Source: Adineta ricciae
Lineage: Eukaryota; Rotifera; Eurotatoria; Adinetida; Adinetidae
Direction: 5' to 3'
Assembly: GCA_905250025.1 (NCBI GenBank)
Contig: CAJNOJ010000002.1
Coordinates: 434,001-498,000, forward strand
Length of the DNA stretch: 64,000 nucleotides
Part shown: in pieces, positions 8,514 to 44,034 of the stretch
Position numbering within the stretch: the first letter of the stretch is position 1
Layout of the letters: each line of letters starts with the position of its first letter
Made by a program: the position numbers and the translations under genes
The notes under the pieces: generated by a model
What the model saw: the letters and a program-made list of their open reading frames with translations, nothing else
Database searches by the model: none
What the model was told of the DNA's origin: nothing

Positions 8514-9401
8514 ATGGCCGATGCATCTAGTGTAGCAGAAATTAAAAAGAAATTCGATGGAAAGCGTGTAATGGTAATAGGTTCACCGAAAATGCCAATT
8601 GTTCGTAAGGAACCATCAGTGGATTCGTCGGATTCTGAAAGATTGACACAGTCGAGATCAAACGATTTACGTCGAACGTCTGGTACGTTCTCTTGTCTAC
8701 GATATGACGAAGTAATTGATTCCTCTTTTTATCTAGAAGACATAAATGCACCAGCATTCGAACCAACTAATAATGAAGCAACATTCGCCCGAGTTCTGCC
8801 CCAAGGACCAAATACTCTCAGGCATGCAAACAAACAAGATATTCCACTGCCAGCTTCGGCTAACCGAAATCGAAATGAAGATGAACATTGTCAATCATCA
8901 GCTGACTCAGTTCATGCAATTACTTCTCAAAATGCAAACCATAGCACTGGCTTTAAAAAAGCGCCTGTTCCTTTGCCGCCCAGAGCTAATCGTAATTGTA
9001 CCGGAAATACACAGGATTCTATTACAGATCCACTTATGTCCGATAACGCACAACCTTCGACTATTCTAAAGAAGCCAATCGTTCCTTTACCTGCCTCTAG
9101 TCATCAAGGGATCAATGACGAAATGTCAAGTTCAACAATGCCTTCTGTAGCAAAAAAACCTCCTGTTCCTCTGCCAGGTCTTGCCGACCAAATTCAAACA
9201 AACAATATTCATTGTCAATCATTAAGTGTCACTCTAGATTCTTTATTACCGTCGAGATGTATGTTCTACGAATTGGACAATACAATTGACGATTATCAAC
9301 GAACAGATGCTCGAACAATAGTTTTTTCAAAGCAAAAACCACCTATGCCGAAAATGACGAAAGATGAAGTTCATAGTCTTCAACGATATTTAAATACATA
9401 A
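8514..9401 (+). CDS. Proline-rich tandem-repeat adaptor-like protein
   Basis: Not assigned to a family. A single exon of 295 codons from ATG 8514 (MADASSVAEIKKKFDGKRVM); the open frame extends 12 bases further upstream without an ATG. Hydrophilic, no signal peptide or membrane helix. The middle holds four imperfect repeats spaced about 35-40 residues apart, each ending in a proline block: QDIPLPASANRN, KKAPVPLPPRANRN, KKPIVPLPASSHQ, KKPPVPLPGLADQ. Such PxPxP blocks after paired lysines suggest docking of SH3-like or other proline-binding domains, but they are not classical PxxP motifs. The C-terminal 70 residues are non-repetitive (CMFYELDNTIDDYQ), with a last KQKPPMPKMTK block. A poly(A) signal follows within 30 bases. 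Probably a cytoplasmic adaptor; function unknown. Confidence 0.75.
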   Translation: MADASSVAEIKKKFDGKRVMVIGSPKMPIVRKEPSVDSSDSERLTQSRSNDLRRTSGTFSCLRYDEVIDSSFYLEDINAPAFEPTNNEATFARVLPQGPNTLRHANKQDIPLPASANRNRNEDEHCQSSADSVHAITSQNANHSTGFKKAPVPLPPRANRNCTGNTQDSITDPLMSDNAQPSTILKKPIVPLPASSHQGINDEMSSSTMPSVAKKPPVPLPGLADQIQTNNIHCQSLSVTLDSLLPSRCMFYELDNTIDDYQRTDARTIVFSKQKPPMPKMTKDEVHSLQRYLNT

Positions 9402-15254: not shown

Positions 15255-17298
15255 TTATTTGAGCAAAAAACTACAAACATAGGATAACGAATTTGGTTGG
15301 AGATCACTGATAGAAGATACAAAATCAGACCTGTATGGATAACCGTGATATTTTGATCGAAAAACAGAAAGAATATAACTGAATAACGAGATGACAATAA
15401 TAAGACCAATAAACGCCATAACGCCTTGAAAAGAGCAACATAAGGTTGTTTATGACGTGGAAAATGTTTCAATTACTTCTGCGTTTTCCTTTTTTCGATT
15501 GTATTTTCGGTGCTTCATTTAACAGGATCATGCCAACACTAACTCCGAAATGTGAAAAAGAAAACGAAAAACGAAGTTAAGGAAAATAAACAAAGATGTC
15601 GTTTCATTCTCTTCTAAAAATCAATTAATTAAAAAAGGATATAGAGTAAGAAGACCTAAAACGACAAAAAGAAACATTGTTATATTCAAAGATCAAATAT
15701 TCGCGAAAACAATCATAACAAAAGCAATAGTAATCAGAAGGAAATCATGGCAATTCAGAAGTCAATTGAGTACACAACACAAATCTTACGATATAAGTCT
15801 CCATGATATACTGATGACCTGAATTGCGGCTGATATATTCCTGCAAATGAGAAACAATGGTTGTCAAGTATTGAAGAGAACCAAGACGAAAATTTTCTTC
15901 GTGGAAAGAATTACATGCGTGTATGAACATCTGAATTGCCTATGAATGACTTTTCATCTGATAACTATTGTTCATGCTAGACTTAACGCTTGATTTTCAT
16001 CTACAAACTACGTATGTTTCGGCAACATATTGCATTTGTGAATCATTGGCAAAGAATTCCTGAAAATAATACGTTTCCACCAATTGTCGCTGCATACACG
16101 CATGTAATTACTTTACCGTAGCATCTTTTCGTGTATTCATAAATGGAGGTCCATTTATATGATTCCAGGTTTGTCCGGATATGAAATAGCACACAACACC
16201 CTAAATAGAAAAGCGAACGGCACTTACAGTGTGTCCTGTTTTTTGGTCGTGATTAGCAAATGTTGAACCATGAATATTGTTCCACATTTGTCCCGAGACA
16301 AAAGTTAAAATAGCGAGCTAAAAGCATATCATGACGCAAAATCTTCTCTGCTGCTCATTTCAACAATAAGAAGTTCGTTTTTCGATGGAAAATCTTCAAT
16401 GCTTACAATAACGAATACTCCCCAAATGAGGTTGTTATACAAAAATGTGAGACTATCTCGTTTAAGATAGAGTAAAGCAGCGATCATTGCCAAAGCGAAG
16501 CCGCTGATGAGAATTCCCGAGTAATCCGGTGGACGATAGATTTCAATCTAGAGAGGAAATACTTTTGATCAGCAAATATTGTAAAGGAACATACTCGAAT
16601 TTCGGTACGATCTTGAACCCATTTTGTTAAGTGCTCAGCAGAAAATCCACGCCTAAAATTTGCTTGAATTCAACCGAAATTTTATCAAATTAGACTCACG
16701 CACCGGTTCAAGTCCAACTGATCGCCTTTTTTTGGTTTGGTTTTCGGCGGGAAATGAATAAAGACTGGTGCCGAGTTGAGTTTCAACTAAAACAACTCGA
16801 ATAAACTTTTCCACAGAGAAAATCAATCACTTACATATTGAAAAACTTCTGCACCTTCATCGAAATCAACCATTGCAAAGAAGAGTTTGTTTGAAAATGC
16901 CTTTGAATAGCGGTAGCTTTGTGCCACAACTTGAAATTCATCATGTGCATGTCTATATATCGAATGAAACGTAAAAAGAAAACAACGAAGTACCTATCAT
17001 ACTTGCACACTCCGCATTGTCGTTGTGGTGATAACGCTGTCAACATGATAATCATCGAATAGTTTTTCGGCGGTGTTCGAACGAAATGTTTGAACCGTTC
17101 ACTATTCAAACGAATCAACGAGTTCTTCGATGACCAATCAGTTAACTGTTGAACTTTATCAGCTAAATTGTTCTATAAAAAATTGAAATGAACGAATCTG
17201 ATTGTTTGAAAATCTTGAATCGATCAGCTAACCTCAGCATGGAGAACATTGACGACGGTACAAGTCCAAAGAAAACATAACCACAGTCGGTGATGCAT
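15255..17298 (-). CDS. MAGT1: Oligosaccharyltransferase subunit MAGT1/TUSC3 (OST3/6 family), with duplicated exons
   Basis: Thioredoxin-fold subunit of the STT3B-type N-glycosylation complex in the ER; it holds acceptor cysteines by mixed disulfides. Signal peptide [20 protein letters not shown] from ATG 17296-17298, then [20 protein letters not shown], the redox motif CGVC in [23 protein letters not shown], and PVFIHFPPK. Membrane part: [19 protein letters not shown], then alternative exons for the lumenal loop (listed separately), [19 protein letters not shown], and the conserved end [12 protein letters not shown]. The exon linking the loop to GMILLNEA and the last codons after YPY are uncertain; I placed the stop at 15255. 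Vertebrates have two paralogues and I cannot say which is closer, so the symbol stands for the pair. Confidence 0.88.
15790..15840 (-). other. MAGT1 alternative exon B2
   Basis: A 51-nt exon encoding [17 protein letters not shown] (acceptor TTTGCAG, donor GTAAGA), a second version of B1 about 170 nt further on. B1 and B2 share the E...NS..QY..ETY pattern. Confidence 0.68.
16012..16059 (-). other. MAGT1 alternative exon B1
   Basis: A 48-nt exon encoding [16 protein letters not shown], with acceptor TTTCAG and donor GTAGTT. It matches the vertebrate loop just before the third membrane helix (HGSSQAQFVAESH). Confidence 0.7.
16117..16200 (-). other. MAGT1 alternative exon A2
   Basis: An 84-nt phase-0 exon (acceptor TATTTAG, donor GTAAAG) encoding [20 protein letters not shown] and a short tail, a second version of exon A1. 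Only 27 nt (16201-16227) separate the two, carrying a complete donor and acceptor but too short for normal splicing. That is the hallmark of mutually exclusive exons kept apart by steric hindrance. Confidence 0.78.
16228..16317 (-). other. MAGT1 alternative exon A1
   Basis: A 90-nt phase-0 exon (acceptor TTTTAG, donor GTAAGT) encoding [20 protein letters not shown] and a short tail. It matches the vertebrate SGQMWNHIRGPPYAHKNP segment. The next exon encodes the same segment again. Confidence 0.8.
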
Positions 17299-17879: not shown

Positions 17880-19475
17880 ATGCCGAATTACTCTAGCTCT
17901 TCGGTCAACACGGTCGACTGGGCGATGGGTTATGAGGGTAAACATCTTTCCTACATGTATTTTCTCTCTTACAATTCATTTCTTTGTCTTTCAGGCAGTT
18001 GTACAGTCAAACAACGAAATCTTTTAGAAGGCCTACACGTTTCATCAACGCCAATACCGCCGCCATTCCAAGATTTTATCTCACTTGTTCATACAAAGAA
18101 ACGAACTCATACAAGTCTAAGTCTTAGCAGTAACAGTAGTGATGGTAGTTGTTATCTTCCACATCAGACTCCATCACCATTACTCGATCATACCAATTAC
18201 AAATATGCGAAAATTCGTGCACGACCACTTTATAACTTTAATTACAATGAATCAAGTATTTGGACACATTCATCCACATCTACGATGGATACTTTATCGA
18301 ATACATTACCATTCGATATGGATGTTGTAAATAAATTTTTTGTGAAAGAAAATAAAATCATTCAGCAAAGCCCACGAACATCATTCTCAACAACATCAAT
18401 GACCCGATCATTTCAAATACTCGATAAATCGTCTCAAATCACGTATGATGTCACCATGCGACATTTAATTCAATTATTATCGAAAACACACTCAACAATT
18501 GATGATGTTCTTCGCGGAATCGATACAGGCGATATCAACAGTGAATGGTAAGATGGATTTCGATCGTCTTCTCTATTGTTTATTCCACCTAGGCTTCAAT
18601 GTGTCCAACGCTTAAATAAACAGTTTCAAAAGCATTGCAAAAACAAACTCCAATTCGAAACTTTTAATCTCGAACATTTACACGAACTCAATACTGTCGA
18701 ACAGTTCTTCGTACAACTCCTTCGTATACCAAATTACAATTTTAAACTGAAATGTTATCAATATCGCGATGAATCTCATTCCCAATTACTCTTATTACAT
18801 CAAACTATCGATCAGCTATTGCATGGAATCAATCGCGTTCTTAATCACGAACATTTACCGCAAATCTTTCAAATCTTATGTCTTTTATACAACATTGTCT
18901 CGAATAAGTGTGTGCCCGGTCTGGATTTTATTTCGTTAATCGATGCATTGAATTCGCCGACAAATCAGTCGAATAAAACAGTTGCACATGCTTTAGTCGA
19001 AATTCTCGATAAATACTATCAAAATACGTTGCTTCATACGATTAATGATGAAACACTGATTGAATTGAAGAAAGTCCATGCGATTAAATATGATAAAATC
19101 TGTGCAGAGATACGCGAAATCTACGAACAATATCAGCAAATGGCATATGAATACTCTCTGTTAAAAAATAATTACGATTTACCATTATTTATCTCGTCGA
19201 TGCTCTCGGAGAGCAAAATTCAATTCGAAAACTTCTTTGAAAAAGAAAGTCTGCTGAGAAAAGGTGAACGAGACCTCGCTGCATATTTCTGCTCGAACGA
19301 TTTATCAGTTGATTGTTGTTTATCAATGATTGGTCAGTTTATCGATAAACTTCGGTTAGCAAATCTGGAAAACACGAAGGAACAACAACGAAGGTTGTCG
19401 GGCAAAGCAAATGAACGTCAACGTTCAACGTCATTGTTGGTAAACACCGCCGCTTCGTTTTTATCGTGTGTTTGA
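17880..19475 (+). CDS. Formin paralogue 1, short, FH2 domain without polyproline FH1
   Basis: Actin nucleator/elongator family. Three exons: MPNYSSSSVNTVDWAMGYEG, a second exon ending GDINSEW, and a third starting LQCVQRLNKQF; both introns are about 50 nt. The lasso tryptophan is probably in SSIWTHSS; the knob lies around ITYDVTMRHLIQLLSKTHST; the core is EQFFVQLLRIPNYNFKL, ILCLLYNIVSN, and AALYFC-like AAYFCSNDLS with GQFIDKLRLANLE at the end. About 500 residues, shorter than most formins: no GTPase-binding or DID region and only a brief PIPPPF instead of an FH1 polyproline run. This resembles FHDC1/INF2-like FH2 domains but is divergent. Its closest visible relative is the gene at 19705-24484, which faces it tail to tail and shares the intron after NSEW. 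Confidence 0.78.
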
Positions 19476-19704: not shown

Positions 19705-22700
19705 TTACAATCGTTTCGACGAAGTTAGACGTTGAAAAACACTGTTGTTGATCGGAGTTGTTCGACGTAGATCAGTTGTACTTGTTGATTTCTTTCGGTT
19801 GTTCGGTAAACTAGTTGACGGAAGGACATTGGTGAGTGTTGTTTTAGTTGCCGATTTCTGATGGTGATAGGAAGTTGGAGGCTTTCGAATGGATTTCGGC
19901 GATGAGACAGAATTGGAGTCGAGATCACTACTTGAACTGAATAAACGTCGGGTTCGCGGCGAGGGACGTTTGAGTGCGGATGAGTCTTGATTGGCTGCAG
20001 TGGACGTTTGAAAAGCACGAAGAGGCTTTTCAGTTGGTCGGGTGAAGGTCGAGCGAAGAAGTTGACTACTGTTCAAGAAAAAGTTCGGCGGTGAACGTGT
20101 TTTAGTGACGACGGAAGGTTTGGAATGATTGTTAGTGGTAGTGGTGGTGGTTGATGATGAGACGTTTTGACAAGAACTAGCATGGCTAAGACGTGAAGAC
20201 ATCTTGCGAATTTTTGGAGAATTAGGCCTGGATGAGACGTTGGCGACAGGTTGAATAGTACGAGTTTTGCTTTTGGGCTTGGAACTTGTTGTGCGACGAT
20301 TAGAAACTGCCGAACTAGCAGAAGTGGCTGTCTTTGCTACGGCCGTCGTTGTCGTTAAAGTAGACGCTGATGAGACTTCATCCGGTTCTGCGGCAGTTGG
20401 TACCGACGGTAGTGAGGGCGGTGGAGAAATTGCTGGAGTTTTGGATGGCTCATCAGCATCTTTTTCCGTCCATATTCGTCGAGACACAGCACAACGTTGA
20501 ATATGTCGACTCGATCGAATCGAGATAGCTGTAGTGTTGTTATTATTATTACTTGTATATCGCACACTCTCAGCAGACGGTGTACGTTTTGCCATTAGAT
20601 TCTTCACTTGACTCTGGAGTCCATTCGAATTGAACGTTGGATAACTATACGCGGAAGCCGATGTTCGCAGTAAACTTGTTGGTCGACTACTAGACACCGT
20701 TGTTCGTTTATTAATGTTATTACGCATACCACTGTCATGACTCAATCGACGAGTCGAGTTGAATGTTAAACGTCGAGTAAGATCATCTGCCAGAGTTTCT
20801 TCTAACGTGATCGATTTCGTTTCATTTACATTTGTTTCCAATGGACATGATCGCGGAGTGATTTCTACAGGTTCACTCACGTTAGATTGTGTTTCGAAAC
20901 CTTCATCAAGTGTTTCAGAATCAGATAGTAAGAATGCTACGATAGGTAAACTAGGATTCTCCTCATTAGAATGATCAACAGGTACTGACGAACTGGAAGA
21001 TTGTGGATTATCATCTTCACCTGAATTTGTCAACTAAAACAAATTGATTCTTTTCAATAAAACAATCTTCGCTTGAATTGACATCATCAATAGCAGATTC
21101 TGCATGTGTGTACTTACCTCGGTTTGTTAGTGTCTACACGTAAAGCAATGAATGTCTACTTTGAAAAGTTACAACTACGAAGCTAATGCTAGTAATTATA
21201 GAAGAGATCAAACATGCATGTTTTTGTGTTGATGTTATATTAATCTATACTAATGTTTTTCTTTTCTTTTGTTCCTCAGCAGAATATCAATCATTCATAC
21301 AAAACACAGTGTCATATCAATTAGTAGATGCAAAGAACGAAACAAATCATGAATAAAGTTAACAATAAATCAAAAGCGAAACTGAAACCAGATGAAGGAA
21401 AAAACAAAACACGAAAATAGAACTAGAATGAAAAAGATCTTTTTTTTACTAACCATAAAGATAAACCATCACTGTTTCGCAAAGAAAAAAAAACAAATCA
21501 AATCAATATGAAAATGAAAGAGAGAGAGAAAAAAAAGATATAAAGAAGAAGATCAGTCTAATTCACACGCAGTTCCAGGATATGAATGTCTTTCATCGAA
21601 AATTGTTCTTTATATCGGATGTATGCCGTGAAAATTTGCTATCTTCTTAGGTCTAACGAACAGAGTACAAATGGTGTCAAACAAACGAATATGAAAAATC
21701 TTATGTGGCTGTTTTTTTTCTCTTTTAATCAATACCATCCTTTCGAGGACACGGTCATGATCGTTGGTCGGCAAACTTGATGAACTAAACTTGTATACCA
21801 AGGTGTTAACTACAAAAGTAGCAGAAACAAAAAAGAACCAAAGCAAATAAACAACATAACACAACACAACAAAAGGAATGTAATGAGAAAGAAAAAAAAC
21901 TAGAACGGTCAACGAAAGAATTAATTTGGCAAAAAAAAGAAGAAATATGTGTTAGTAAACTACAGACTAATCATAGGTGGGATATTTAAGAATCAGCTTG
22001 TATATACTAGATTTCTTTACCTCAGGTGGATTTGAAATATCGGTTGATGTAACTGGTGTTAGCGTAGATGGATATGTGGAATTCTCTTTATTGTTGTCAT
22101 CGTCGTTATCGGAATATTGAAAATGTTGATAATCAGTGAATGAAGGTGTTAATGATGCGTTGGTTTTGTATTCATTCGAGGAGATTGAATCATTTGGTGT
22201 TGATTGATCAGTGGAAGGATCAAATAGACGTCGGATGGGTGTTGTTAAGTAAAACGACGGTCGAATTTCACAAACAGATATAACACGAGCTGCTGTTGTT
22301 GATGGTTCATTCGATGGTAACGAATGATCATCATTCATATCTGTATCCGTTGAATTCATTTCTTCACTTGTTGTTGTCGCAGTTGAACAATCCATTTGAT
22401 TATCTTGATCGATGTCTTTTTCCTTATTAGTTATCGGAGAAATAAATACATCGTCACACGTTTGTTCTTGTTTCGGTGTGCAAATCGGTAGAGCGTTGAA
22501 TGGTCGTTTAGGGAACACGGTCTTCGCTGTGGGTGAATGGCCACGTTTGCGCGGTATTGCATTTGATAGAAGATTTTGGGTACGTATTGCGGTTGGGACT
22601 GGAGGTGCGGTTGTTGCTGTGGCTACTGCTGATTCCATTTGTTCTTGTTGTTGTTCATCATTGATATACGAAACATCACGTGATGATGCACAAAAGCGCT

Positions 22701-24484
22701 CTCGAGATGTTTTATTGACTTTTACACGTTGTCGAGCCGTGGTTGGTGTTAATGGAACGTTCAGATGATCACGGAATATATTTGTATCTGAACCATATTG
22801 ATTTTGAGAGCTTCGTAATAGGCGCGACGTTGTCGGGGTTTGAAGAATTCGGTTTTCATACGCTCGCTGTTGTTGAAGTTGTTGTTTGAGTAACAGGTCA
22901 TTTCGACGACGTTGTTCAACATTTTGCATATGAGCTAAACGAAGTTTATCAATAAACTGCCCTAACGTTGATAAACAGGTTTCCAATGACAAATCCCAAA
23001 TACAGAAATAACTTGCTAAATCTTTTTCACACTTTTTTATCTTGTTTTCATCGTCAAACAATCGCGTGAATACACCTTGCATATCATTTAAACTTGTCTT
23101 GATATGTTCCGGTAGAAGGATTAATTGTTGTTGTAATTCCCTTAATGTACTATTCAATTGCTTGTAACGCGTGTATAATAAACGTATATCAATATAGATT
23201 GGTATATACTTTAGTGCAGATAAATCTTTCAGTTTTAATAATATTTGATTATCAAATATATTCAACAAGTTGGGATATTGTTCTTCTAATAGATGGCAAA
23301 GAACATGTGCGATGGTGATATTTTGTTTCGGTGTGCGAGTGGACAGGACAGAAAGAAGTGAATCGAAATGAAGACCAGGAATTGTTTTACCCGTTATACT
23401 GTTATAAAGTAAACAGAGTAAATGAAGTGTACCTGGTAGTTGTTCGTTGTTTAAGATAACTTGGACACTTTCAAGAAGATCATGAATGTGTTTAGTCATA
23501 CGTTCAAGTTGAGTTGGCGCTTCTTCGAGAAATTTCAAGTAAATTAGTTTAAACTCGTAGGCTGGTACACGAACAAGTTTAACGAAAAATTGTTCAATGA
23601 GTACTAAGCCATGTGTCGAACCTTTGTGTGCTAAGACTCGAGCTTTGTCTTCAGGTCGTTTATCAAATTGTTTGTTCAGAGCAGTAACAGCGTCAAGCCT
23701 AGAACAATAAAGAATCTCCTTAGTTTCACGAAATCTACCGACTCTGTTTGCTTAATTTGAAGCTTTAGAAATGTGTTTACCGAGAAAATAAATTTAGCGT
23801 CTGATAATAACACTTACCATTCCGAATTCATATGTGTTTCATCAATAGCTCGAATAACATGATCAATACTTGCATCGTCATCGTGATCTTTCTTAACCAA
23901 TTGAAGTAAATGACGCATAGGTACATCATAAAGCATTTTAGATGTAGCATCAAGTAAAACAAATGATAGTGGTCCATCATCAGTCATATTGCCAAGACCT
24001 CCTCCTCCTCCTCCGATAAATGATGTTGTAAGACTTGATCGTCGATAATGACCTGTCATTGACGAGTTTGATTCACCATAATGTTGATCAAAAACAGTTT
24101 GTTGTATTCGAAGATTTGGTAAAACACGTCGTGTCCAAATATTGTTGCCAGCCATGAGCATTGTTGGAACAGAACGTGCTTGAATTTCGGTAACATTCGC
24201 ACGATTAACAACGAGATTAACTTCTTGATGTGGAAGTAATACTTTACATGAGTTATTAGTGTTGTTGTTAAACACAGGTGGTGCAGGGGGTGGAGGAGGA
24301 GGAGGCGGTAATCCAACGAAACCATCAGAAGGCGACTGGCTTGATGTCATGTTTGCTGTAAGTAGAGAAAACAATGTGCAATACTTATGTAAAACAACAA
24401 AATCTGTCGAATGAACGAACCAATTTTAAAAACATCATCAGTAGGTGAAGAATATTGAAGAGTCGTCGTCGGAGTGGTCAACAT
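19705..24484 (-). CDS. Formin paralogue 2 with FH1-FH2 and long basic Ser/Thr-rich tail
   Basis: Starts at ATG 24482-24484 (MLTTPTTTLQYSS), spliced in frame to NMTSSQSPSDGF. FH1 is a short polyproline run (24278-24310), followed by the lasso NNIWTRRVLPNLRIQQ, the knob MLYDVPMRHLLQLVKK, an exon end at HMNSEW, then EQFFVKLVRVPAYEFKL, LLCLLYNSITGKTIPGLHFD and GQFIDKLRLAHMQNVEQRRR. The rest is a low-complexity, Ser/Thr-rich tail. At ISNPPE a GTAAAG donor can join across about 990 bp to an acceptor TTTTAG at 21034, giving LTNSGEDDNPQ in frame and a further 440 residues rich in Ser, Thr and Arg that end SKRL at 19705. Without that splice the protein stops at 21967. Basic tails of this sort bind microtubules in FHDC1; that role here is inference. 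Confidence 0.78.
21034..22020 (-). other. Long intron or alternative 3' end of formin 2
   Basis: Unusually long for this window (about 990 bp against the usual 50). The first 54 bases continue the open frame to a stop at 21967 (KKSSIYKLILKYPTYD), so an unspliced transcript would end the protein there. A minus-strand GTAAGT donor near 21115 could mark an internal exon or an alternative first exon for the tail; joining it between the flanking exons breaks the frame. Confidence 0.55.
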
Positions 24485-42571: not shown

Positions 42572-43697
42572 TTAGAAACGATTTCTGTCGTGCGGTAAAT
42601 CGTAATTAATCTCTGGCCCTCGCGCAACGATACCTGTTGGATTGACCATTAAATGGGAAGCAAAATAATGTCGTTTGATTTCATTGAAGTTAACTGTTTC
42701 TTTGACATCTTTCATTTGATAAATTTCCCGTACGAATCCGAATAGATTTGGATAGTCTTTGGAAATCATCTTCTTATTACATTTGAAATGTGTGAAGTAA
42801 ACGGGATCAAATCGTAGCAGTGTTGTCCAGGCACGAACATCGGCTTCAGTGATCTGTTTATTGTCGATAAGATAACGTTGTTTGGAGAGGATGCCTTCAA
42901 GAATGTCTAACATGGAGAAAACATCTTCGAAAGCAGCGTCGTAGGCTTCTTGAGATTTAGCGAAGCCAGCTCGATAAACACCGTTGTTCAATTTCGGATA
43001 AACTTGCTCGTTTAGTTCGTCGATACGTGATCGTAGGGATTCCGGATAAAGATCTAAATCGGGATAACGAGCCAATTTGTTGAATTCAGAATTGAGCATT
43101 CGAATGATTTCAGCCGATTCATTATTGACTATTTTCTGAGTCTAAAATAATTTCAGAATGTTAAAAACGAAAGGATAAGTTTGAACTATTTACTTTAAGG
43201 TCAAAGAGGACAGGCACAGTGACGCGTCCACTGTAATCAGGATCATTTAGTTTATAAACATCTTTTAAATGGGTGAATGTTGGATGATGTGGATCAGGAT
43301 ATTTTTCTCCAAATGCCCATCCGCAACCTTTTTCGAACTCAAGTAAACTATCCACAACGGAATACGAAATGACATGATCGAGGCCTTTTAATTTCAGGAC
43401 AGTCAGAGTTCGATGAGCCTGAAATGAAACGAAACGAGTTTATATCTTTTTTTTCTGTATGAAAATAACACTAAAACGCAGTCTTACCCAAGGACAAGCC
43501 AAAGCGACGTAAATATGATAACGATTTGCTTCTGGTTGATATTCAGCGGATGAATCATCTTTAATCCAATTTCGAAAAGCGGTTACTAGTGAGAAGTACG
43601 GAAAATAGACATTCAATAGCATAAATATATCGACAATCTTACCTCCACGGATAAATTCTCCTTTCACATTCGTTACCGGATTTTTCGTGTCAGCCAT
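42572..43697 (-). CDS. Glutathionyl-hydroquinone reductase (YqjG/ECM4, xi-class GST)
   Basis: Reduces glutathionyl-hydroquinones through an active-site cysteine. From ATG 43695-43697 (MADTKNPVTNVKGEFIRGG), splicing gives FRNWIKDDSSAEYQPEANRY, the catalytic segment HIYVALACPWAHRTL (split by an intron after CPW), LKLKGLDHVISYSVV, GCGWAFGEKYPD, DPDYSGRVTVPVLFDLK, NNESAEIIRMLNSEF, IDELNEQVYPKLNNGVYRAG, FAKSQEAYDAAFEDVF, RFDPVYFTHFKCNKK, and VNFNEIKRHYFASH-MVNPTGIV. These match bacterial YqjG nearly block for block over the whole length. Animals generally lack this enzyme, so a horizontal origin is likely. At least four short introns and conserved flanking animal genes show it is part of the host genome rather than contamination. 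Confidence 0.93.
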
Positions 43698-44034
43698 TGT
43701 ATTGTTTAATATATATATGTTGTTGAGAAAGTAGTAAACATGCCTTATATCTATAAACCCTCGATGCTTTATAACGATGACAAGGCATATTTCTTTTCAT
43801 TCTGTTCTGTCGATGACGTATACGACTCCGCAATCAAGTTTAAAGAAGACAGAAGCATGCTGTAAATATTTTTCAAGTGCATAACCGAAAAACCTCACTG
43901 TTCGATTTTCTCATAAAAAGAATTGATTATATCTGCAGATTTCTTCTGAATTTTCTTCTAAGATTCAAATAGCTTTATTTCACATGTAAAAATCTAAAGC
44001 ACAAAAATATGAAGCATTGTAAGAACTAATTCAT
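43698..44034. promoter_or_regulatory. Upstream region of the reductase gene
   Basis: About 340 bp between the reductase start and the end of the small membrane-protein gene. A short TA run lies just before the ATG; nothing else stands out. Confidence 0.35.

Follow-up and report, generated by a model that had tools for sequence, protein, structure and literature searches.

Two pairs of diverged duplicate exons, predicted to be spliced exclusively, and crossing intronic complementarities in an OST3/OST6-family gene

Two ways of keeping neighbouring exons apart have been described that are relevant to the gene reported here. In the exon 4 cluster of Drosophila srp, bidirectional intronic pairing is described, in which a pseudoknot impedes joint formation (PMC6071210, in the portions of that text available). 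The other is steric: the available parts of two papers state that a donor and its branch point must be at least about 50 nt apart (PMC7969005, PMC5740500). In the oligosaccharyltransferase (OST), the subunit concerned here exists in alternative versions, and yeast complexes that carry Ost3 differ in turnover from those that carry Ost6, a difference for which the C-terminal transmembrane domain of Ost3/Ost6 has been hypothesised to be the cause (PMC8191290, in the sections available). According to excerpts of a review, transmembrane helix 2 (TM2) of Ost3 contributes to a groove that has been proposed as the docking site of the lipid-linked sugar, and TM3-TM4 have been modelled against Sec61 (PMC7226087).

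The gene described here lies on the minus strand of the window, by which we mean the whole 64,000-nt stretch of DNA that was analysed. It contains two pairs of duplicate exons, A1/A2 and B1/B2, and the best reading of its sequence is that each pair would be spliced in a mutually exclusive manner to give up to four forms of the protein. The coordinates of all features are collected in Table 1.

Table 1. Features of the OST3/OST6-family gene, with coordinates given in the direction of transcription
Feature	Coordinates	Strand	Basis or remark
OST3/OST6-family gene	17298-15255	-	spliced model open, Pfam PF04756, 6s7t_H match
Exon E1	17298-17233	-	
Exon E2	17172-17003	-	donor placed by comparison with human MAGT1
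Exon E3	16952-16835	-	
Exon E4	16786-16704	-	
Exon E5	16652-16595	-	
Exon E6	16547-16407	-	
Exon A1, 90 nt	16317-16228	-	TM2 end and SGQxWNxIxG loop
A1-A2 gap, 27 nt, donor gtaagt and acceptor ctatttag	16227-16201	-	sequence reading
Exon A2, 84 nt	16200-16117	-	second version of the A1 stretch
Helix 1, 5' arm, A2-B1 intron, 17-nt perfect core	16109-16093	-	repeat search, folding
Exon B1, 51 nt (donor gtttgt) or 48 nt (donor gtagtt)	16059-16009	-	loop end and TM3 start
Helix 2, 5' arm, two pieces, B1-B2 intron	15975-15926	-	repeat search, folding
Helix 1, 3' arm, B1-B2 intron	15925-15909	-	repeat search, folding
Exon B2, 51 nt	15840-15790	-	second version of the B1 stretch
Helix 2, 3' arm, B2-E7 intron	15763-15720	-	repeat search, folding
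Microexon E7, 13 nt	15655-15643	-	frame requires inclusion; restores VFLLYFGVSVGM versus human MAGT1
AT-AC U12-like intron, 91 nt (atatccttt ... ttccttaac ... cac)	15642-15552	-	motif search
Exon E8	15551-15477	-	
Exon E9	15424-15331	-	
Exon E10	15270-15255	-	

The spliced model and its translation gave a complete OST3/OST6 gene of the MAGT1/TUSC3 type, from start codon to stop, built with GT-AG introns and one AT-AC intron. The isoform that carries A1 and B1 matched the Pfam family OST3_OST6 (PF04756) over profile positions 1-294 of 294 (1.1e-91, 307.8 bits), and the A2B2 isoform also matched over the whole profile (6.3e-90, 302 bits); the Pfam scan covered these two isoforms and left out A1B2 and A2B1. 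Human MAGT1 in structure 6s7t (6s7t_H) was matched at 5e-104 by A1B1 and at 5.1e-100 by A2B2, and both isoforms aligned end to end with this MAGT1, a member of a four-TM-helix family, the comparison being one of alignment only. In the same alignment a CGVC redox motif in the thioredoxin-like domain stood opposite the CVVC of MAGT1, and the KYHGYPYSFL end was also present. A preliminary description of this DNA had named the gene as MAGT1/TUSC3, an identification that the Pfam and human MAGT1 matches confirmed. The E2 donor was placed at 16994 in the first model and, after alignment with MAGT1, at 17003 in the final one; with this 9-nt shift an insertion beside the CGVC motif disappears. The longer form of E2 was used in the spliced model and in the Pfam and 6s7t MAGT1 comparisons, and the shorter form in the intron-pair energies, the ungapped intron-pair score and the scans for relatives.

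Duplicate exons were sought by a scan of each strand of the window for similar 22-residue stretches on the same strand, in frame and 66-699 nt apart. Among the 11 places listed for both strands, A1/A2 ranked first (score 59) and B1/B2 second (53), while third place among those listed went to a proline-rich protein repeat (50). A1 and A2 were identical at 11 of 28 aligned residues, SGQxWNxIxG among them, and B1 and B2 at 7 of 17; in 10,000 residue shuffles for each pair, neither observed score was reached. All four exons are in phase 0, so every combination of an A and a B exon stays open, and the four spliced products were open over 326-328 codons including the stop (in the model with the E2 end at 16994). 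The two exon pairs and their common phase, as first proposed, were thus recovered, and no other nearby in-frame similarity listed for the window scored as high as these two pairs.

A different kind of evidence bears on each pair. The gap between A1 and A2 has a full donor and acceptor, and its 27 nt fall below both the other 12 introns of the gene model (47-168 nt) and the steric limit of roughly 50 nt quoted above; the preliminary description had likewise called it too short to be removed. Read in frame, the gap terminates in TAG, so its retention would introduce an in-frame stop. Apart from that of the acceptor AG, its only adenines are two in the A1 donor and a single one 5 nt before the gap ends, so that the branch site of A2 would have to overlap the A1 donor, sit in A1 or be unusual. 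A1 and A2 would be exclusive on this account, as 27 nt leaves too little room for the U1 and U2 snRNPs across the gap. Little weight is given to a home-made intron finder, which passed 15 introns in all, the shortest of 44 nt and none of 40 nt or less, and which missed all but 1 of the 11 GT-AG introns of the gene model (gap excluded). Elsewhere in the window, three introns of about 52, 57 and 69 nt were counted by eye in a GST-like gene at 42.5-43.7 kb. The B1-B2 intron is 168 nt long, and because of this distance the steric limit does not apply to B1/B2.

Around the B exons, two complementary intronic pairs were found, one enclosing B1 (helix 1) and one enclosing B2 (helix 2). The repeat search returned arms at 15886-15925 and 16093-16132, a 78% match over 40 nt, and at 15749-15762 and 15927-15940. 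No perfect inverted repeat in the window whose arms lie within 400 nt of each other is longer than the 17-nt core of helix 1; the next reach 14 nt. The 40-nt arms suggest that helix 1 reaches into exon A2; since the folded model leaves that part unused, pairing is claimed only up to the A2 donor. Of 78 intron pairs, the 42 that lie up to four introns apart were tested, and the most extreme were those that flank B1 (z -5.5) and B2 (z -4.4). The observed pairing energy was reached in 0 of 2500 shuffles for helix 1 and in 0 of 2500 for helix 2, the latter at -63.7 kcal/mol versus -63.6 for the lowest shuffle. The ungapped score, calculated for all 78 intron pairs and not adjusted for length, was 40.5 for the pair flanking B1, 31.0 for the pair flanking B2 and 29.0 for the next. 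The best ungapped piece was matched in 0 of 1000 shuffles for helix 1 and 12 of 1000 for helix 2, which consists of two pieces that this score cannot join. As judged from these sequence comparisons, helix 2 is the weaker of the two.

Read along the RNA, the elements follow one another as helix-1 arm, B1, helix-2 arm, helix-1 arm, B2, helix-2 arm, so that helices 1 and 2 cross as a pseudoknot. Helix 1 would loop out B1, with the result that B2 is used, and helix 2 would loop out B2, with the result that B1 is used; through its pairing with the A2 donor, helix 1 may also disfavour A2 while favouring B2. We consider it reasonably probable that the gene has two exclusive pairs, A by steric exclusion and B by crossing helices, which would diversify the membrane part of the OST3/OST6 protein. 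It is also possible, though we regard it as rather unlikely, that exclusive splicing is real but is decided by the strength of the splice sites together with trans-acting factors and the steric limit, the complementarities being incidental and due, for instance, to chance or to the remnant of an inverted duplication. When real segments of the window were used as one partner, pairing as good as that observed was found for helix 1 in 2 of 1500 and 0 of 1500 cases and for helix 2 in 3 of 1500 and 0 of 1500; the three matches to helix 2 would be expected of incidental pairing, as would a folding outcome that varies with the chosen ends (see below). Against this, the intron pairs that stand out are exactly those around B1 and B2, their arms lie in the crossing order, and no joint shuffle in 2500 reached the summed z of -9.4, the lowest being -5.9. 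A dead third B exon was considered as the source of the pairing and rejected, as the score of B2 versus the B1-B2 intron was matched by 172 of 1000 shuffles. No pairing is claimed for the A cluster (introns E6-A1 and A2-B1), for which z was -2.7 with 2 of 200 shuffles as good, among 42 pairs tested.

The crossing helices were also followed in predicted folds of transcripts of increasing length. With the start at 16330, helix 1 had a mean pair probability of 0.99 for ends from 15905 to 15735, after which mixtures were obtained. Helix 2 reached 0.94-0.99 at ends 15660-15552, but helix 1 returned (0.96) at end 15680, and end 15470 gave a split of 0.34 to 0.66. When folding began from E6, helix 2 was dominant by end 15715. 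In a 691-nt fold the probability of helix 1 was 0.00 and that of helix 2 nearly 1; ensembles in which helix 1 or helix 2 was forced were about 3 kcal/mol apart, and a 631-nt region as a whole folded only modestly better than 20 shuffles (z -1.94). In these models the helix balance switches with transcript growth, which favours control by the helices, but it jumps with length and depends on the ends, which, like the 0.00 for helix 1 in the 691-nt fold and the modest z of the 631-nt region, speaks against it.

In the fold with helix 1, exon A2 is paired at its final base, and its donor at +1 and from +3 to +6. The mean unpaired probability of this donor was 0.10-0.28 where helix 1 was dominant and 0.66-0.76 where helix 2 was at least 0.94, and in terms of these models the masking of the A2 donor by helix 1 is likely. 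Because helix 1 pairs with the A2 donor, the A and B choices may be linked. One proposal, which we put forward as doubtful, is that a single RNA toggle sets both choices, to A1-B2 or mainly A2-B1. As long as helix 1 is held, masking of the A2 donor and looping out of B1 would yield A1-B2; after transcription of the B2-E7 intron, helix 2 could displace helix 1, free the A2 donor and loop out B2, yielding mainly A2-B1. If such a toggle exists, transcription speed or temperature would pick between two linked membrane-core forms of the glycosylation enzyme. The link could also take another form, in which helix 1 would bring the A2 donor near B2 and so favour A2-B2.

Exclusive use of both members of each pair presupposes that neither is a relic. 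Of the 18 residues that the members share over A1/A2 and B1/B2, 10 are coded by different codons. Over 45 codon pairs pS was 0.78 and pN 0.40, with pS not above pN in 2 of 2000 bootstraps, although such a comparison of two copies is not enough to prove that both are constrained. On this sequence evidence A1/A2 and B1/B2 are diverged duplicate exons in which silent changes appear saturated and protein changes constrained. That each pair has one member, for example A2 or B2, which is no longer used and is decaying is compatible with that limit of the codon test and with the donors of A2 (gtaaag) and B1 (gtttgt or gtagtt), which look weaker than gtaagt. This explanation is improbable, however, since all four exons are open, in phase and supplied with donors and acceptors despite the saturation of silent sites, each keeps its own subset of human MAGT1 residues (14 of 30 in A1, 12 of 28 in A2, and 7 of 17 in each of B1 and B2), and the Pfam score of A2B2 is nearly equal to that of A1B1. 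Inclusion of both members together to give a longer loop, through a 27-nt intron or B1-B2 splicing, agrees with exon lengths that are all multiples of three and with a B1-B2 intron of spliceable length, but is very improbable, given that 27 nt is far under the other introns of the gene and the quoted steric limit and that half a helix and a loop would presumably be doubled in the membrane domain.

Downstream of the B exons, removal of the AT-AC intron restores VFLLYFGVSVGM against MAGT1. The U12-type consensus comprises an (A/G)TATCCTT donor and a CCTTAAC branch motif, and both motifs are present, at 15642 and 15584. A search of both strands of the window gave one occurrence of TTCCTTAAC and three of ATATCCTTT; nowhere but in this intron do motifs of the two kinds lie within 1500 nt of each other. 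The U12-like branch motif stops 24 nt short of the 3' end of the intron, whereas such a motif is normally closer to it. The B donors, being of the U2 type, should be unable to splice to a U12-type acceptor, by which microexon E7 would be guarded against skipping. If the window is bdelloid, this U12-like intron would be a survivor. Together with the proposed two-helix mechanism for B1/B2 and the likely masking of the A2 donor, this candidate intron is an addition to the preliminary description. About 800 nt of one small gene would combine steric exclusion and crossing helices with a microexon and a U12-like intron, a span short enough for a single read to phase both exon choices.

Alignment to MAGT1 places the A exons at the end of TM2 and in the loop that follows, and the B exons at the end of that loop and the start of TM3; the TM2-TM3 loop is presumably lumenal, in line with the topology of the family. 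As read from this alignment, the variable exons would alter part of the membrane domain and leave the redox domain unchanged. Beside one constant thioredoxin-like domain, exon swaps would give different versions of the stretch from the lumenal half of TM2 through the TM2-TM3 loop to the beginning of TM3. Most likely, exon choice would tune the hold on STT3 and the lipid-linked sugar, or on the translocon, and the property affected would most likely be turnover or the choice of partner, not redox specificity. An N-D-S sequon for glycosylation is present in B1 but not in B2; it lies in the lumenal loop of a subunit of the glycosylation enzyme itself, close to TM3 and perhaps too near for use. 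The known natural versions of the Ost3/Ost6 type differ over the whole protein. Versions that differ only in the membrane part, if spliced as predicted, would be a natural test of the turnover hypothesis set out in the available sections of PMC8191290.

The collections genome_contigs and viral_contigs were each scanned once, with 51 and 9 pattern matches respectively, and no relative was confirmed among them. In the literature searched, which leaves out most subscription papers, no title among the matches listed concerned exon duplication in the OST3/OST6 family, and no paper contained both 'bdelloid' and 'mutually exclusive exons', both 'MAGT1' and 'minor intron' or both 'oligosaccharyltransferase' and 'tandem exon duplication'. 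MAGT1/TUSC3 is absent from the main texts, as far as these were available, of two human surveys of exclusive exons (PMC5740500, PMC9741552). These results are weak evidence of novelty. Within the window no tRNA was found (bacterial settings) and no Rfam match at the gathering score. Two formin (FH2) genes on opposite strands, at 18552-19472 (+) and 21970-23751 (-), adjoin the OST gene. At 8832-9200 (+), KKPxVPLP-like motifs are repeated inside one open frame. The gene at 42575-43700 (-) has GST C-terminal domains and is possibly of foreign origin; we take it to resemble glutathionyl-hydroquinone reductases, which would be unusual for an animal.

The closest likeness among described systems is to srp. 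As in the portions of that account available (PMC6071210), two alternative exons each lie within their own complementary intronic pair, and the pairings cross. The present case differs in gene and protein, in having a second exon pair with a 27-nt gap directly upstream, and in that one predicted helix would also cover a donor of the upstream pair. The A pair resembles exons 4a and 4b of OGDH and other pairs under steric exclusion (PMC7969005, PMC5740500, as available), duplicates for which the donor and the branch point are too close together, but in OGDH the effect is due to distant branch points within a longer intron, whereas here the whole gap is 27 nt. In common with yeast Ost3/Ost6 and vertebrate MAGT1/TUSC3, as described in the available parts of PMC8191290 and PMC7226087, alternative versions of the same subunit would be used, one per complex; those versions are encoded by separate genes and differ throughout, and the versions predicted here would arise by splicing and differ in the membrane part only. 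Finally, competing long-range intronic pairings near alternative exons recall the docking site and selector arrangement of the Dscam type (PMC6071210, PMC11802352, in the text available). Unlike Dscam, no single docking sequence common to all selectors is evident here, and the B1-B2 intron contains two neighbouring arms that are not identical.
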